Shown: positions 5,548 through 29,828 of the stretch, piece by piece
How positions within the stretch are numbered: the stretch's first letter is position 1
How the letters are laid out: each line of letters begins with the position of its first letter
Origin: Terriglobus roseus DSM 18391
GTDB taxonomy: Bacteria > Acidobacteriota > Terriglobia > Terriglobales > Acidobacteriaceae
Assembly (NCBI RefSeq): GCF_000265425.1
Contig: NC_018014.1
Span: forward strand, 4,836,001 to 4,900,000
Direction: 5' to 3'
Length of the DNA stretch: 64,000 nt
Notes under the pieces: generated by a model
The model's input: the letters and a program-made list of their open reading frames with translations, nothing else
Told to the model about the DNA's origin: nothing
The model's database searches: none
Translations under genes and position numbers: made by a program

Positions 5548-6732
5548 TTACTTGCCGTGCGTGACCCGGTACAGGATGCCGTTCTGTTCGTCGCCCAGCA
5601 GGATGCTGCCATCCTGCATCTGCGCCAGGCCAAATGGCCGTGCAAAGCGAGCCCATCCACTTCCGCCCTTCACGGGCATCAGGAAGCCTTCGACGAATGG
5701 TGTCATCGTCTTCGCACTCCCACCTTCAAAGTGGATACGTACGACCTCGTAACCACTGGGCGGATTCGCTCCCCAGGATCCGTGCATCGTCGCAAGCGCA
5801 TCGCCGTTGTAGTCCGCGGGCAGGCCCGTGCCACTCAGAAAGATCAACTGCATACCGGACGCGTGCGCCGCCCACGTCAGCACAGGCCGCGTCGACTTCG
5901 CATCCCACTGATCCAACGTCACGCCGTGCGGCGGAGTCAGGTACAGGTTGCGCTCGCCGTCGCCCAGAATGTACGGCCAGCCGTAGTCCTTCCCCATCTC
6001 CAGCTTATTCAGCTCCTCCCGCTGCGCTTTATCACCCTGCCAGTCGACACCGTCATCCCAGCCATACAGCGCACCCGTTGCCGGCTGAAACGCAAAGCCA
6101 ATGGTATTGCGCAGACCGGTTGCAAAGGTCTCTTTGCCGCTACCGTCCAGGTTGAAACGCTGCATGGTGGCGTTGGCCTTGTTGTGCTCCTCGCAGGTGT
6201 TGCAGGTACTGCCGACGGAGACATACAGCTTGTTATCCGGCCCAACGGCCAGCGTGCGGTCGACGTGCTGGCCCGCGTCCGGCAGGTCCTTGATCAGCAG
6301 CTTCGACGTACCCAGCGTTCCATCGGCTTGGATGGGAGCACTGTAAACCTCTTTGATCGTCACGTAGTACATCGTGCCGTCATGGATCACCATGCCATGC
6401 ACATCTTCCAGCGCCACCACCTGCTTCTTCGTGGCGCCGTCCGGCGACAACATCGTGATGGTGCCGGCGTCGCGGCTGCTCACATAGATATTTCCAGCAC
6501 GCGAGATCACGATCACGCGCGGACTCTCAAGCCCTTCGGCAAACTTCGCAATATGAAATCCCGCAGGCAGCTTCAGCTTCGCAAGGTTCTCCGGCGTAGC
6601 CTTCAGCGGTGCGGGCAGAACCACGTTGACCTGGTGCGTCTCCCTGCTCGGGTTGGGCATTGCCTGCGCATGCACCATGGCAGAAGAGATCAGTACGGCG
6701 GCGGAGGCGATCGAAGCAAGCGTGCGTTTCAT
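5548..6732 (-). CDS. exported PQQ-type sugar (sorbosone) dehydrogenase-like propeller
   Basis: The 394-residue product starts with a signal peptide (MKRTLASIASAAVLISSAMVHAQA). It continues as a six-bladed-propeller protein of the glucose/L-sorbosone dehydrogenase family. Family features include LPAGFHIAKFAEGLESPR, a CNTCEEH insert, TGLRNTIGFAFQPATG and GKDYGWPYILGDGE. I chose the ATG at 6732, not the in-frame ATG at 6789, because it precedes the signal peptide and has GGAGG about 13 bases upstream. Members oxidise sugars or aldoses in the periplasm with PQQ; the substrate here is unknown. Confidence 0.85.
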   Translation of the reverse strand: MKRTLASIASAAVLISSAMVHAQAMPNPSRETHQVNVVLPAPLKATPENLAKLKLPAGFHIAKFAEGLESPRVIVISRAGNIYVSSRDAGTITMLSPDGATKKQVVALEDVHGMVIHDGTMYYVTIKEVYSAPIQADGTLGTSKLLIKDLPDAGQHVDRTLAVGPDNKLYVSVGSTCNTCEEHNKANATMQRFNLDGSGKETFATGLRNTIGFAFQPATGALYGWDDGVDWQGDKAQREELNKLEMGKDYGWPYILGDGERNLYLTPPHGVTLDQWDAKSTRPVLTWAAHASGMQLIFLSGTGLPADYNGDALATMHGSWGANPPSGYEVVRIHFEGGSAKTMTPFVEGFLMPVKGGSGWARFARPFGLAQMQDGSILLGDEQNGILYRVTHGK

Positions 6733-6867
6733 ATCTCTACGGATGCCTCCGAACCTTGCGCTGGATGCTGCATCCGCTAGGTTCGACACCGAACATGGCG
6801 CAATTCTGCCTACCCGGATGCGTGTTACTGCGTCCTACAGAAGCGGAGTAGTACTGAGGTGAAAACG

Positions 6868-7551
6868 ATGAAACACCCGCTTGCAATCACCGCTCTATGC
6901 GCCGGACTTGCATTGGCGCCATCCATGGGTTGGGCGCAGTCAAACGCTGCGGCGACGCAGCCGAACGCGACAACCCCACAGGACTACAACAGCAAGACCT
7001 GGTCCCAGGAGGACGCCGGCCGCATCGTGCAGGAAGTACGCCACCGCCTCCTGAGCCTACCCAACTACAGCGTCTTTGACTCGCTCTCGTTCGGCATCCA
7101 GGGCCGCACCATCGTGCTGCGCGGCTTTGCCTCACGACCCACACTCAAGCAGGACGCACAACGCGCCGTGAAGGACATTCCAGGCGTGGAGACGGTCAAC
7201 AACCAGATCAAGGTACTGCCGCTCTCCCCGATGGATGACCGCATACGGGTCGCCGTCTACGTCCGCATCTACACGCAACCCGCGCTGCGCAGATACACCG
7301 GCGCACCCGTTGGCTTTGGCATGGCGCCGTCCGTCGCGCTGCAGGCCGGCGGCATCACGAACGATCCACCGCGCGGCTACCACGCCATCCACATCATCGT
7401 GGACCATGGCCACGTCACACTCACCGGCGTAGTCGATCGCGAGTCCGACGCGAACATCGCCTCCATGCAGGCCAACGGCACACCCGGCGTCTTCTCCGTC
7501 GACAACGACATCGTGATCGCCGGACAAGCGCCGCGAGAAAAAATGGACTAG
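6868..7551 (+). CDS. exported protein with two BON domains
   Basis: This 227-residue protein has a signal peptide (MKHPLAITALCAGLALAPSMGWA). Two BON domains flank an insert. The first is around residues 45-110 (VQEVRHRLLSLPNYSVFDSLSF through VETVNNQIKVLP). The second is around 165-222 (IHIIVDHGHVTLTGVVDRESD). BON domains are thought to bind phospholipids or outer-membrane surfaces, as in OsmY. The ATG at 6868 is preferred to the GTG at 6859 because GAGG sits 8 bases upstream of it. It is convergent with the next gene across a 15-bp-stem hairpin. Confidence 0.85.
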   Translation: MKHPLAITALCAGLALAPSMGWAQSNAAATQPNATTPQDYNSKTWSQEDAGRIVQEVRHRLLSLPNYSVFDSLSFGIQGRTIVLRGFASRPTLKQDAQRAVKDIPGVETVNNQIKVLPLSPMDDRIRVAVYVRIYTQPALRRYTGAPVGFGMAPSVALQAGGITNDPPRGYHAIHIIVDHGHVTLTGVVDRESDANIASMQANGTPGVFSVDNDIVIAGQAPREKMD

Positions 7552-24508: not shown

Positions 24509-27340
24509 ATGAGCACCACTTCCCTGAACACCTTCGAATCACGCGCCACACTACAGAGCGGCGGCAAGAGCTACACCTACTACCGCCTGGATTCCCTGGC
24601 CCAGCGGGGCATCGAGCTCTCGCGCCTGCCCTTTTCCCTGCGGGTTCTGCTGGAGAACCTGCTTCGCCGGGAAGACGGCGTGACCGTCACTGCCGACGAC
24701 ATCGAGTTCCTGGCGAAGTGGCAGCCCGCCGCCGAACCCAGCCGCGAGATCGCCTACATGCCCGCGCGCGTGCTGATGCAGGACTTCACCGGCGTTCCCG
24801 CCATCGTCGATCTGGCCGCCATGCGCGATGCCATGAAGGTGCTCGGCGGCGATCCGCAGAAGATCAATCCGCTGCAGCCGGCAGAGCTGGTCATTGACCA
24901 CTCGGTGCAGGTGGATGAGTACGGCCTGAAGAACGCGTACGACCTGAACTCGCTGCTGGAGTTCCAGCGCAACCGCGAGCGTTACGCCTTTCTGAAGTGG
25001 GGTCAGACGGCCTTCGACAACTTCAGCGCGGTACCGCCAGGCATGGGTATCTGCCACCAGGTGAACCTGGAGTACCTGGCACGCGTGGTCTTCACGACGC
25101 AGGACAACGTTGCGTATCCGGACACGCTGGTCGGCACGGACAGCCACACCACCATGGTCAACGGCCTGGGCGTGCTCGGCTGGGGCGTAGGTGGCATTGA
25201 GGCCGAGGCAGCCATGCTGGGCCAGCCGGTATCGATGCTCGTTCCGCAGGTTGTGGGCTTCCGCCTGACGGGCAAGCTCCGTCAGGGCACCACCGCGACC
25301 GACCTGGTGCTAACCGTGACCGAGATGCTGCGCAAGCATGGTGTCGTGGGCAAGTTTGTCGAGTTCTACGGTTCGGGCATCAGCGAACTGCCGCTGGCCG
25401 ATCGCGCGACGATTGCAAACATGGCTCCTGAGTACGGCGCGACCTGCGGCTTCTTCCCTGTGGACGCAGAGACGCTGACCTACCTGCGCCTGACCGGCCG
25501 CACCGAAGACCAGGTAAATCTGGTGGAGGAGTACCAGAAGGCACAGGGCATGTTCCACACTGCGGACGCTCCCGAGGCCGAGTACAGCTCCACACTTGCA
25601 CTCGATCTGGCTACCGTGGAACCCTCCGTCGCCGGCCCCAAGCGTCCTCAGGATCGCGTTGCGCTGTCGCAGACGAAGGAGAGCTTCGCCAAGGTGCTGC
25701 CGACGCTCTACGGCCCTAACGCGAACGTGAAGGGTGATCGCCAACTCACGCGGTGGCAGGGCGAAGGCGGCCACTCGTCCGCAGACGGTTCGGTTGAATC
25801 CACGGTGGGCATGCCGGAACCCGGCAAGGCCGGTCACCTGGAGACGGGCCTGGAAGCCATCGGTTCCGTCAAGGAACGCCTGGGCATCGATGTCGAACCG
25901 TACCTGCACCACGGCAGCATTGTGATCGCGGCCATTACGTCCTGCACCAACACCAGCAATCCTTACGTGATGATCGCGGCAGGTCTGCTGGCGAAGAAGG
26001 CTGTCGAGAAGGGCTTGATGACCCCGCCGTGGGTCAAGACCTCGCTCGCGCCGGGTTCGCGTGTTGTGACCGATTACTACGACAAGGCTGGCCTGTCGCA
26101 GTACCTGGACGCGCTGCGCTTCAACACCGTCGGCTATGGCTGCACCACCTGCATCGGCAACAGCGGACCGCTGCCCACCGATGTGTCGAAGGCCATTGAA
26201 GATCACGGTCTGGTCGCCGTGTCGGTGCTCTCCGGCAATCGCAACTTTGAAGGCCGCATCAACTCTGACGTTCGCGCCAACTACCTGATGAGCCCGCCGC
26301 TCGTCGTAGCCTACGCACTTGCTGGCACGATCGATTTCGATTTCGACAAGGAGCCCATCGGCTTCTCGCCGGATCACACCGCGGTCTTCCTGAAGGACAT
26401 CTGGCCGACGCAGGAAGAGGTCAACAAGACCGTCGCCGACTCTATCGACGCCGAGATGTTCCGCAAGCAGTACTCGACCGTCAGCGATGGAGATAAGAAC
26501 TGGCAGAGCCTGAAGTTCCCGCTGGGCGATGTCTACGGCTGGGAGCCGGACTCCACCTACATCCGCAAGGCACCGTACTTCGACGGCATGCCGGCAACGC
26601 CTGCTCCCGTGGTCGATATCCACGATGCACGCGTGCTCGCCGTCCTTGGCGATTCCGTTACGACCGATCACATCTCGCCTGCGGGCAGCATCAAGCTGAA
26701 CGGCCCGGCCGGCAAGTACCTGACGGACAACGGCGTGAAGCCCGGCGACTTCAACAGCTACGGCTCGCGTCGTGGCAACCATGAGGTCATGGTGCGCGGA
26801 ACCTTCGCCAACGTCCGCCTGCGCAACAAGCTGGCTCCCGGTACCGAAGGCGGCGTGACACGCCTCCTCCCTGAGGGCACCGGCATGTCCATCTACGACG
26901 CGTCAGTCGAGTACGCCAAGCGCGGCACGCCGCTCGCGATCCTTGCGGGCAAGGAGTACGGTTCCGGCTCGTCGCGGGACTGGGCTGCGAAAGGTCCGCG
27001 CCTGCTGGGCATCCGCTTCGTCATTGCGGAGAGCTACGAGCGCATTCACCGCAGCAACCTGGTCGGCATGGGCATTCTTCCCCTGCAGTTCCAGCACGGT
27101 GAGAATGCAGAGTCGCTCTGCCTGACCGGCGAGGAGACCTACTCGGTTCCCGGCTTGAAGGACATGCTGGACAGCAAGTTCGCCAACGGCAAGCAGATCA
27201 CCGTGGAAGCCACGCACGCGGACGGCACGGTCACGAGCATCCCCGCAACCGTCCGCATCGACACACCGCAGGAGATCCTCTACTACCAGCACGGCGGCAT
27301 CCTGCAGTACGTGCTGCGCCAGTTGGCCGGTAAGGCGTAA
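24509..27340 (+). CDS. acnA: aconitate hydratase A
   Basis: Aconitase interconverts citrate and isocitrate in the TCA cycle. The 943 residues fit the AcnA/IRP type. The three [4Fe-4S] ligands are Cys479 (in TSCTNTSNP) and Cys545/Cys548 (in [11 protein letters not shown]). Other blocks are [57 protein letters not shown] and [20 protein letters not shown]. The insert around residues 395-445 ([23 protein letters not shown] region) is glycine/serine-rich. It is monocistronic, ending at a very strong hairpin. Confidence 0.97.
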
Positions 27341-27356
27341 CCCAATCACAGAGCAG

Positions 27357-27394
27357 CAAGACAAGGGCCCGGAGCAATCCGGGCCCTTGTCTTG
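27357..27394 (+). terminator. strong terminator after acnA
   Basis: A perfect 17-bp stem (27357-27373 with 27378-27394) with a GCAA loop lies 16 bases after the acnA stop. The central segment is AAGGGCCCGGA/TCCGGGCCCTT. No long T tract follows, but the stem itself is very stable. Confidence 0.85.
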
Positions 27395-27468
27395 CGAAGA
27401 AAGTTATACAAACCGACGACGCCGAAAGTTCACCTAGCGACGGGAACGGCATTAGCGTTCGCAGTCCA

Positions 27469-27486
27469 CTCAGTTTCCGAAAACCC
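27469..27486. repeat. left 18-bp inverted repeat of a gene cassette
   Basis: CTCAGTTTCCGAAAACCC is the exact reverse complement of 28851-28868. The sequence that follows (GACTTTCGATGGAA) is also partly conserved at the right end and in a middle copy at 28334-28360. Confidence 0.8.
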
Positions 27487-27519
27487 GACTTTCGATGGAA
27501 CGGGCACCTTCCCGTTACG

Positions 27520-28200
27520 TCAGGGGCGTTGTGCTCTGTAGCCTGCGGCGGGAATTGTGATCCGGAAGGTGTCTGGGGTGAAGTTGGGGTGATCTTCGAA
27601 ACTCAGAAAGGTGGTTGTGGTTGACGATCGAAAGCCGTTTGCCTTGTTCTCTATCTCCACCACATCTCGCAAGATGACAGGTCGAATAGGGTCTATGCAC
27701 ATTGTGCGAACGGCCTGCTCCAACACGATGCGGACGACTACACAACGCCTCTCGCTATCCGCGAGATGGACGTAATCATCGCCGACAACGAACAAAGACG
27801 CTTGATTGCTGCTTGGTACGATGAAGTTCATGAGCGATGGCTCGTAAAAGGACATGAGTGGAAAGCTGCACTGTCCGCCCGTTTCATTCAAGTAATAGCT
27901 CAGCCCTCCATCCCCTGAATAGAACTGTTGGGTTCCGTCGCAGACCATCGTTGTTCGGTCATCCCCGCTGTTGACTCTGCTCATTTTCAGCGGGCCTTCA
28001 GCGGCTAGTTTGATGTGAATATCGGTGCTTGCCAGCTTCAACCCAGGCCCAGAAACCTGCATCGTCTGGACGGCTTCGGCTCTCCAACTCCGCGTATTTT
28101 CTCCAAAGCTCTTCGCCCTTTGGAGCAATTCCATCGCGTCCGGAGCGCTCTGAGCTCGAATCGATCCTGTCAGTAAGATCAGCAATAGGACTCGGTGCAT
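27520..28200 (-). CDS. exported LolA/LolB-like hypothetical protein
   Basis: The 226-residue product starts MHRVLLLILLTGSIRAQS, a signal peptide. The mature part (LLQRAKSFGENTRSWRAEAVQTMQV, then DIHIKLAAEGPLKMSRVNSGDDRTTMVCDG) resembles the LolA/LolB-like outer-membrane lipoprotein-sorting fold used by many acidobacterial exported proteins. One CIDP and one CSFP cysteine are present. I start at the ATG at 28200; the frame extends further upstream without a signal. Its base composition is visibly less GC-rich than its neighbours, and it lies inside the inverted-repeat segment, suggesting transfer. Function unknown. Confidence 0.65.
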   Translation of the reverse strand: MHRVLLLILLTGSIRAQSAPDAMELLQRAKSFGENTRSWRAEAVQTMQVSGPGLKLASTDIHIKLAAEGPLKMSRVNSGDDRTTMVCDGTQQFYSGDGGLSYYLNETGGQCSFPLMSFYEPSLMNFIVPSSNQASLFVVGDDYVHLADSERRCVVVRIVLEQAVRTMCIDPIRPVILRDVVEIENKANGFRSSTTTTFLSFEDHPNFTPDTFRITIPAAGYRAQRP

Positions 28201-28333
28201 GGGACTAAGGCTACTACGGCGACCTTGAGGTAAGGTGGCCTCCGCTGACGCTCCCACCAACTCCACAGAAGTCGGCTTATCGTTAGAAGTCAGCTACTCC
28301 CTAAACGGCGTTTGCGGAAAGCCCACAGCCGCC

Positions 28334-28360
28334 TTTTTCCGAAAACCAGACTTTCCGGGT
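28334..28360. repeat. middle partial copy of the inverted-repeat family
   Basis: TTTTTCCGAAAACCAGACTTTCCGGGT resembles the left end (GTTTCCGAAAACCCGACTTTC) in the same orientation. It lies between the two divergent genes of the cassette. Confidence 0.55.
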
Positions 28361-28406
28361 AAAAGGTTTTCTTGCACATCGCAAGCGACCGTTGAGATGA
28401 TGGGCC

Positions 28407-28793
28407 ATGCCGAATTCGAGGAACAGGTTCCTGTCTTTCGTTATCCTTGCGTCATTCGGTGTCGGCGCAGGGTGTAAACATGCCCAGCAACCAATCACGT
28501 CGGGCATTGTGGTTGGAGATTATGTCTACATATCTGAAGATCCGGAGAACAAAGCGAGTGATCACAACGCAGATCACCTGAGGCTCCAGCCTGATGGGAA
28601 ATACGATCTTGTCCAAGGCGGCTCTTCGAAGCCTAAAACTGAGACCACAGGGAACTGGCGAATATGGAGTGGCGGGAGCAACGGACCAAGAGTCCTGTTA
28701 GATAACTCGGGCTACCCGATTGAGATCCATGACCGTGAGATCAGACTTCTCATCGATAACGACGTGGGCATCTGGTTCTCAAAAGCTAGGTGA
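28407..28793 (+). CDS. small lipoprotein, unknown function
   Basis: The 128 residues begin MPNSRNRFLSFVILASFGVGAGC, a lipoprotein signal with a lipobox ending at Cys23. The mature part has VVGDYVYISEDPENKASDHNADHL and GKYDLVQGG, a repeated beta-strand pattern, and ends with DREIRLLIDNDVGIWF. I do not recognise the family. It is divergent from the LolA/LolB-like gene, and both lie in the lower-GC segment bounded by inverted repeats. No good ribosome-binding site precedes the ATG (GATGATGGGCC), so translation may be weak. Confidence 0.55.
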   Translation: MPNSRNRFLSFVILASFGVGAGCKHAQQPITSGIVVGDYVYISEDPENKASDHNADHLRLQPDGKYDLVQGGSSKPKTETTGNWRIWSGGSNGPRVLLDNSGYPIEIHDREIRLLIDNDVGIWFSKAR

Positions 28794-28850
28794 TCTGCAG
28801 CGACTCACCGTCAGTTCGCCTAGCGCGGCCGCCATGGATTCCAGAAAACG

Positions 28851-28868
28851 GGGTTTTCGGAAACTGAG
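28851..28868. repeat. right 18-bp inverted repeat of a gene cassette
   Basis: GGGTTTTCGGAAACTGAG is the exact reverse complement of 27469-27486. Together they bound a 1.4-kb segment with two small exported-protein genes. No transposase is encoded between them. Confidence 0.8.
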
Positions 28869-28955
28869 CGGGGATTTGCAATCGGGAGTCGACTTCTCTC
28901 ACTACTGTCCCTGCCCCCTTGTCATCGGGTGTCACTCAGGACGACACTGTCCTCG

Positions 28956-29828
28956 ATGCCAAGCCTTCGCCCTGTCTCGCTCGCTCTGTTCGTACTGGCA
29001 CTCTCAGCGCAAGCCCAACAGTCCCTCACCGCGGAACAGGCCATCGCGAAGATGCGTGAGGCTGCGGGCGTTACGGCGGTTCCGAACACGGTGGACACCA
29101 TTAAAGCGGGCGATCCGGCCACCGTCGTCACCGGCATTGCGACGGTCATCGCGCCCACCATGGAGGTGCTACGCAAGGCCGCCGCCGCGCATGACAACCT
29201 GATCATCACGCACGAGCCGACGTTCTATAACCATCAGGACGCGGACACCATGTTCAAGAACGATCCCGTCTATGCCGAAAAGATGGCCTACATCCAAGAG
29301 CATGGCCTCGTCATCTTTCGCTGGCATGACGGCTGGCACGCACGCAAGCCGGATGGCATTACAGAGGGCTGGGTGAAGAAGGCTGGCTGGAAGCAATACC
29401 AGCATGCGGACAACCAGTACCTCTTTACCGTGCCGACGATCACCGTCGCCGAACTGGCCAAACAGCTTGCGGCAACGATGGGCAATCGCATTGTGCGCGT
29501 GATTGGCGATCCGAAGATGAAGGTCACCAAGGCCGCTTACGCGCCGGGAGCTTCCGGCGAGGCACGGCAGATCCAGGCTCTGGAGCGGGACGACGTCGAG
29601 GTGCTGGTGGCTGGTGAGATTCCTGAGTGGGAGACGATCTCCTACACGCTGGATGCCGTGCAGCAGGGACGCAGGAAGGCGATGATCCTGCTGGGGCACT
29701 ACACGTCAGAAGAGCCCGGCATGGACAACTGTGCCGTTTGGCTGAAGACGGTCTTCCACGAGACGAACATCGATTTCATTCCAGCGGGAGAGCCCTACTG
29801 GCTCTCTGGGCAGCCACCCAAGCGATAG
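28956..29828 (+). CDS. exported Nif3-like dinuclear metal protein
   Basis: The 290-residue protein has a signal peptide (MPSLRPVSLALFVLALSAQA) followed by a Nif3/DUF34-type domain. Metal-site features visible are NLIITHEPTFYNHQD (paired His/His) and the C-terminal GHYTSEEPGMDNCAVWLKT. Nif3 proteins are widespread, usually cytoplasmic and functionally undefined; an exported form is unusual but I have seen such sequences in Acidobacteriota. I chose the ATG at 28956 over a GTG at 28929 because it directly precedes the signal peptide. It ends 29 bases before the YncE/phosphoesterase gene. Confidence 0.8.
   Translation: MPSLRPVSLALFVLALSAQAQQSLTAEQAIAKMREAAGVTAVPNTVDTIKAGDPATVVTGIATVIAPTMEVLRKAAAAHDNLIITHEPTFYNHQDADTMFKNDPVYAEKMAYIQEHGLVIFRWHDGWHARKPDGITEGWVKKAGWKQYQHADNQYLFTVPTITVAELAKQLAATMGNRIVRVIGDPKMKVTKAAYAPGASGEARQIQALERDDVEVLVAGEIPEWETISYTLDAVQQGRRKAMILLGHYTSEEPGMDNCAVWLKTVFHETNIDFIPAGEPYWLSGQPPKR

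Follow-up and report, generated by a model that had tools for sequence, protein, structure and literature searches.

The acnA–nif3 Interval

The window is a stretch of 64,000 nucleotides from Terriglobus roseus DSM 18391 (contig NC_018014.1, positions 4,836,001 to 4,900,000). Within it, between the aconitase gene acnA and a nif3-like gene, lies a short interval with two small genes set among copies of a repeated site (Table 1). As the initial annotation had recognized, the interval is bounded by perfect 18-bp inverted repeats, CTCAGTTTCCGAAAACCC at 27469–27486 being the exact reverse complement of 28851–28868. The match widens to 28 bp at 86% identity (27466–27493 and 28844–28871), and when up to three mismatches are allowed these two copies are the only ones in the window, against 0.02 expected by chance. 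A related copy at 28336–28355 is 95% identical across 20 nt; it had been described as a partial third copy, and is indeed a copy of the repeat, although it belongs to a complete internal site (28289–28367). The lower GC content attributed to the region was confirmed by computation (53.4% between the repeats versus 62.8% in the flanks), as was the exported appearance of the two inner products: the 226-aa protein encoded on the minus strand has a signal peptide, and the 128-aa protein encoded on the plus strand a lipobox-like motif (GVGAGC). No match to Rfam was obtained in the window or in two array loci, and no homologues of the two window cassette proteins were found in the other loci fetched.

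The repeats had been taken for the terminal inverted repeats of a single element. They are instead the right arm of a first attachment site and the left arm of a last one, since any array of hairpin sites is flanked by both arms in inverted orientation. As the middle copy represents a full site by itself, two cassettes are present in the interval. The earlier description of an integron-like insertion, or of a mobile cassette lacking a transposase, therefore pointed in the right direction while misreading the repeats and counting one cassette where there are two. The word CCTAGCG, suggested as a target-site duplication, does not behave as one: its copy near 28820 lies inside cassette 2, and only the left copy is present in G231, a congener of the window genome with flanks about 85% identical. 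With high confidence, the interval can be regarded as a two-cassette array of an integron-like system. No integrase gene lies beside it, and the array is called integrase-less because the window genome yielded no recognizable intact cognate integrase accompanied by a matching half-site; it is probably immobile at present, or moved in trans.

Table 1. Coordinates of the features of the acnA–nif3 interval (window positions) and of a sequence found at array ends elsewhere in the same genome (locus positions).
Feature	Position	Strand	Evidence and remarks
acnA (aconitase), left chromosomal neighbour	24509..27340	+	Pfam Aconitase, 1e-166
acnA transcription terminator, 18-bp perfect stem, outside the array	27356..27395	+	Inverted repeat; same in G231
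Left boundary attachment site, left arm degenerate, right arm intact	27430..27505	+	Covariance model R1, 24.2 bits, E 0.004 over the whole genome; syntenic copy in locus L181; chromosomal side common to G231
Core TTTCCGAAAACCCGACTT of the left boundary site (left repeat)	27474..27491	+	Crossover maps inside the core
Cassette 1	27484..28347	+	Ends approximate (crossover zones in two cores), predicted from borders measured on duplicates
Cassette 1 gene, 226-aa exported protein	27520..28200	-	N-terminal signal; DUF2092, E 0.046 (below cut-off)
Complete internal hairpin attachment site	28289..28367	+	R1, 62.8 bits, E 7.9e-15 over the whole genome (the site is also one R1 training row)
Cassette 2	28348..28868	+	Predicted from site layout and measured borders; right border compared with G231
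Cassette 2 gene, 128-aa lipoprotein-like product	28407..28793	+	Lipocalin-like GH43_C, E 0.009 (below cut-off)
Left arm of the last site (right repeat), then chromosomal flank common to G231	28841..28868	+	
nif3-like gene, right chromosomal neighbour	28929..29828	+	Pfam DUF34_NIF3, 1.3e-17
Array-end sequence of about 340 bp, window genome	L088 4774-5110; L092 11898-12234; L092 4207-4548		

A Hairpin Attachment Site

The window genome (G000; 5,227,858 bp in one contig) contains 26 exact copies of TTTCCGAAAACC and none of the reversed control. The search for the repeat elsewhere in the genome, which the initial annotation had proposed, returned about 45 related sites in about nine clusters, in which the sites are 300–1000 bp apart and mostly of a single orientation per stretch. 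The full layout of the site is TTCCCGCAAAACGG(T/C)GTTTTCGGCAAC, a loop, and CTGTTTCCGAAAACCCGACTTTTCGGGA; it folds as a long hairpin, and the repeats of the window are the two arms of this attachment site of roughly 70 bp. Each cassette is read as a small gene with the left arm and the spacer of a hairpin at its end, and the right-arm core (GTTTCCGAAAACCCGACTT in the window genome) as the junction with the next cassette. At three array ends of this genome, the left arm is followed by a sequence of about 340 bp that starts with AAACCGTACACGTGGGCC and is 97–99% identical among the three places (Table 1); this sequence may represent either a cassette whose core has degenerated or an element directed at the sites.

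The pairing of the two arms was examined in an alignment of 77 sites from 14 genomes. In 52 cells both partners of a pair had changed, versus 30.6 ± 4.2 in shuffled alignments (0 of 500) and 21–42 in controls in which the pairing was slid. The covariation is not significant within the window genome alone and appears once the genomes are combined. The alignment was fitted to the pairing model, itself built from these very sites, and this fitting favours the structure. Two unpaired positions are nearly constant: a left bulge of 1 nt (73 of 77 sites) and a right bulge of 2 nt (72 of 77), which reads AC in 68. Judged from this alignment, the pairing is conserved by compensatory changes around fixed unpaired bulges; the cassette site is, as expected of an integron, a bulged hairpin whose structure is more conserved than its sequence. 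In genome G082 the inner stem has other letters and still pairs (GCTTGGGGGA with TCTCCCACAAGC), and the first complete site after the candidate integrase gene of plasmid pACIX905 pairs GGGTTCTGAGCAAC with GATTGCTCAAAGCAACG. These stems, in which pairing is kept with different letters, hint at independent support for the structure. Sites of this kind lie at L238 5956 and 16384 in G082, and the system probably includes another group, with a specificity of its own, that the models used do not capture.

Cassettes as Exchangeable Units

Whole cassettes are duplicated at different loci, with lengths and identities of 490 bp (99.4%), 615 bp (94.8%), 430 bp (96.7%), 492 bp (98.4%), and 708 bp (98.3%). 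In these duplicates identity starts and stops within the site core, and the upstream gene takes the spacer of the hairpin along with it, as happens in integrons. From the duplicated pairs the crossover can be set between AAAAC and GACTT; the exact base is not the same in all of them. Exchange is also evident at the locus itself: in G231 the acnA–nif3 gap is delimited alike on the left (CACCTAGCGACGGGAACGGCATTAGCGTTCGCA...CAGTTTCCGAAAACCCGACTTT) and on the right, with three different cassettes in between. One of these matches an array of the window genome at 3847 kb (83% aa identity), and another matches arrays of G593, G483, and G571, which belong to a different genus (63–69% aa identity). The initial annotation had set a mobile insertion against an arrangement in which the same genes and repeats would be syntenic across the genus; what is found is one congener that shares the boundaries and carries other cassettes. 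The boundary site after acnA was recognized in 2 of 19 congeneric genomes, the window genome and G231, and neither the site nor an array was found past acnA in the rest, several of which are drafts read for only about 330 bp beyond that gene. The arrays are, as in integrons, tandem series of exchangeable cassettes.

The near-perfect inverted repeats that flank each cassette would also be produced by non-autonomous, MITE-like transposons inserted side by side. Target duplication, a mark of such transposons, is absent here; the spacer between the arms follows the upstream cassette and not the target, unlike the ends of a transposon; and orientation is uniform in most stretches. This origin is exceedingly improbable.

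Regarding their content, the cassette open reading frames show no strand preference (36 with the array and 36 against it, by mechanical calling), a difference from integrons. Their Pfam matches are few, mostly to domains of unknown function and hydrolases, and no anti-phage families were found among 50 of them. A match to DUF3738 (1.7e-49) was obtained among the cassette reading frames. The commonest recurring protein family near the arrays occurs in five genomes, for example at L167 153–1016 and 4467–5327.

A Candidate Integrase and Its Half-Site

In G593, an Edaphobacter-like genome, locus L305 contains a tyrosine recombinase gene (6397–7352) with a frameshift near 6991, whose stop lies 7 bp before the core TTGCCGAAAACACCGACTT. 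This core, which has no left arm, precedes an array on the same strand; five of the array's cores are identical to it at 19 of 19 positions, and about 15 sites come after it. At a second place in this genome (L321), only the 3′ end of the recombinase gene and the same half-site remain. The gene is intact in the conjugative plasmid pACIX905 of Granulicella tundricola (WP_013573308.1), where a half-site (ACTGCCGAAAACCAGACTTT) starts 8 bp past the stop; beyond it, on the same strand, come a cassette and a complete site. Another array runs the opposite way from the 5′ side of the gene. As read from the sequences of two loci, one with an intact and one with a frameshifted gene, a gene for a XerC/D-like recombinase ends 7–8 bp before an unpaired half-site that starts an array. 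Beside the recombinase gene, L305 and pACIX905 possess an acceptor-like site devoid of the hairpin left arm, as attI would be, and its acceptor role is predicted. In G082, a half-site (AGAAGCCGACTTTTGG) 30 bp behind the recombinase gene matches the genome's own cores (ACAAGCCGACTTCGGG), and the window genome has, at 3642 kb, a recombinase remnant with a site behind it on the same strand. In pACIX905 and at several loci of the window genome, further sites lie at the opposite end of the recombinase gene or point the opposite way. Two of the four loci of the recombinase family in Granulicella sp. L46 lie less than 500 bp from one of 49 sites (p ~4e-4), and three of ten in the window genome lie within 1.1 kb of a site (p ~8e-5), both p-values ignoring the clustering of mobile DNA.

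The catalytic residues R-K-H-R-H-Y are invariant in the intact members of the family, which find their best matches in XerC and XerD and are colinear with them along their length. Against the IntI profile (TIGR02249), the recombinases of the candidate clade score 36–49 bits and the one beside the arrays 46 bits, with a cut-off of 265. In the IntI alignment the offset shifts abruptly, from 217/179 to 226/228, and roughly 40 positions of the model are absent between the catalytic Lys and His, the place where I2 is expected. The I2 helix is the hallmark of IntI and is regarded as adapting this enzyme to folded single strands (PMC7790495).

An ordinary integrase-less integron array (CALIN), in which an IntI acting in trans captured attC sites that had diverged, would share with the present arrays the tandem cassettes, the foldable bulged sites, and the attI-like half-site. 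The window array and most arrays of its genome, like a CALIN, have no intact integrase alongside; moreover, integrons have been reported from Acidobacteriota (PMC8618304) and 'Acidobacteria' attC models exist (PMC8352920). The sites, however, are not of the canonical attC sequence type, and the outer boxes RYYYAAC/GTTRRRY are found in 0 of the 77 on either strand. At E 1e-40, the 250 family genomes gave no IntI match, in a search whose control genomes also gave none and whose positive control was the detection of distant Xer-like proteins in the window genome by the same profile. Together with the low IntI score of the array-side recombinase and its missing model positions, this makes an ordinary integron array served by IntI very unlikely.

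Another possibility is that host XerC/XerD acts at dif-like sites to move the cassettes, in the manner of pdif modules. XerC/D-like genes are present, Xer recombinases act on short inverted half-sites, and pdif modules resemble the arrays in their XerC/D-type chemistry and in having small genes between recombination sites. Nevertheless, dif-type sites are short and are served by the host enzymes, while those described here form long hairpins whose stems covary; at several loci the first half-site is directly adjoined by a dedicated recombinase gene, and the R1 site is found in only 16 of 250 family genomes. Movement by host Xer is accordingly judged highly improbable.

It might also be that the cassettes are correctly recognized and are moved by some other recombinase, the neighbouring Xer-like gene being a passenger. 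Many members of its family lie away from arrays, and one relative stands beside what we read as an IS91-like transposase. On the other side are the exact match between the L305 half-site and the cores of its array, the short fixed spacing from gene to half-site in L305, L321, and pACIX905, and the proximity of family loci to sites in Granulicella sp. L46. A passenger gene is considered unlikely on these grounds, and the XerC/D-like recombinase is retained as the candidate integrase. The recombinase family is found in 58 of 250 family genomes and most other members examined, some of them on short contigs, have no recognizable array downstream; because of this, the family may have other jobs too, with only some members acting as cassette integrases.

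Other candidates were discarded. A 312-aa tyrosine recombinase, the first one considered, co-occurs with the sites and leaves fragments near arrays; since its full copies in other genomes have neither surrounding sites nor a matching half-site, attention moved to the sister clade at array starts. Its two copies in the window genome (L104 5757–6695 and L103 6398–7336, at 3.86 and 3.77 Mb) are 94% identical, and C-terminal fragments are scattered over several genomes. One copy has CGACAATGCAAATTGTCG upstream, and similar palindromes are common to related copies; this recombinase is possibly a mobile element of its own. A RIT-like pair and XerC/D homologues did not recur at arrays. Two neighbouring tyrosine recombinases of 348 and 411 aa (L103 15477–17683) resemble recombinase-in-trio elements (RIT). 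Plasmid pACIX905 also carries two similar blocks (L345 7577–8649 and 24113–25173), each of which pairs a gene for a serine-type 'recombinase family protein' with one for an HNH endonuclease.

Distribution

Model R1 detects the site in 8 of 79 genera of the family. With model R2, the genus of Granulicella sp. L46 has it in 12 of 28 genomes, and the phylum in 12 of 396, 11 of these in the family Acidobacteriaceae; the large scans were run with strict filters, at which weak sites are lost. Among named genomes, the exact core is found for example in Granulicella sp. L46 and S190, G. paludicola, Edaphobacter aggregans, E. modestus, E. lichenicola, and Terracidiphilus gabretensis. The exact core with TGTTTCC upstream has no occurrence in the named genomes, and a core search permitting GTTGCC upstream returns 20 loci. 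Two weak site matches are present in the IMG/VR contig IMGVR_UViG_649633002_000001 (L304 1747–2436), which may indicate either that cassettes are also carried by a prophage or that the contig is a misassigned chromosomal piece.

A Probable Integron-Like System Outside the Integron Family

The observations are very probably best explained by an integron-like system with an integrase other than IntI. The XerC/D-like recombinase would serve as the integrase, the half-site as a double-stranded acceptor equivalent to attI, and the folded single strand of the hairpin site as the equivalent of attC; a circular cassette would recombine into the half-site between AAAAC and GACTT. Recombination of the cassettes is itself predicted from sequence. 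As in a sedentary chromosomal integron, there are a recombinase gene, an adjacent acceptor half-site, and tandem cassettes; the cassette sites are foldable with conserved unpaired bases, and the crossover is placed at one end of the site, which leaves the spacer with the upstream gene. Unlike in integrons, the recombinase is XerC/D-like and devoid of the IntI insert, the RYYYAAC/GTTRRRY boxes are absent, and the half-site lies directly past the recombinase stop codon. The system is thus integron-like by its mechanism, with predicted activity, while the enzyme and the site boxes that define the integron family set it apart from that family.

Integrons have been treated as a single lineage defined by IntI, in which the I2 helix is held to allow the safe use of folded single strands (PMC7790495). 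A precedent for a folded strand being used by a host Xer-type enzyme without the IntI insert is the single-strand hairpin integration of the CTX phage (PMC7790495), in which, in contrast to the present arrays, a phage genome and a dif target are involved, with neither cassettes nor arrays. No earlier description of the system was found in the open-access literature, a coverage that leaves aside subscription journals and preprints.

On balance, there is a reasonable case that Acidobacteriaceae have independently evolved a way of capturing cassettes, convergent with integrons, which relies on an I2-less XerC/D-like integrase that joins folded cassette sites to a half-site immediately behind its own gene and is present on both chromosomes and conjugative plasmids. 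Soil Acidobacteria would seem to possess a second cassette-capture system, with sites and a likely enzyme unlike those of every integron compared. If this is true, a reservoir of mobile genes carried by abundant soil bacteria escapes searches that rely on IntI and attC models.
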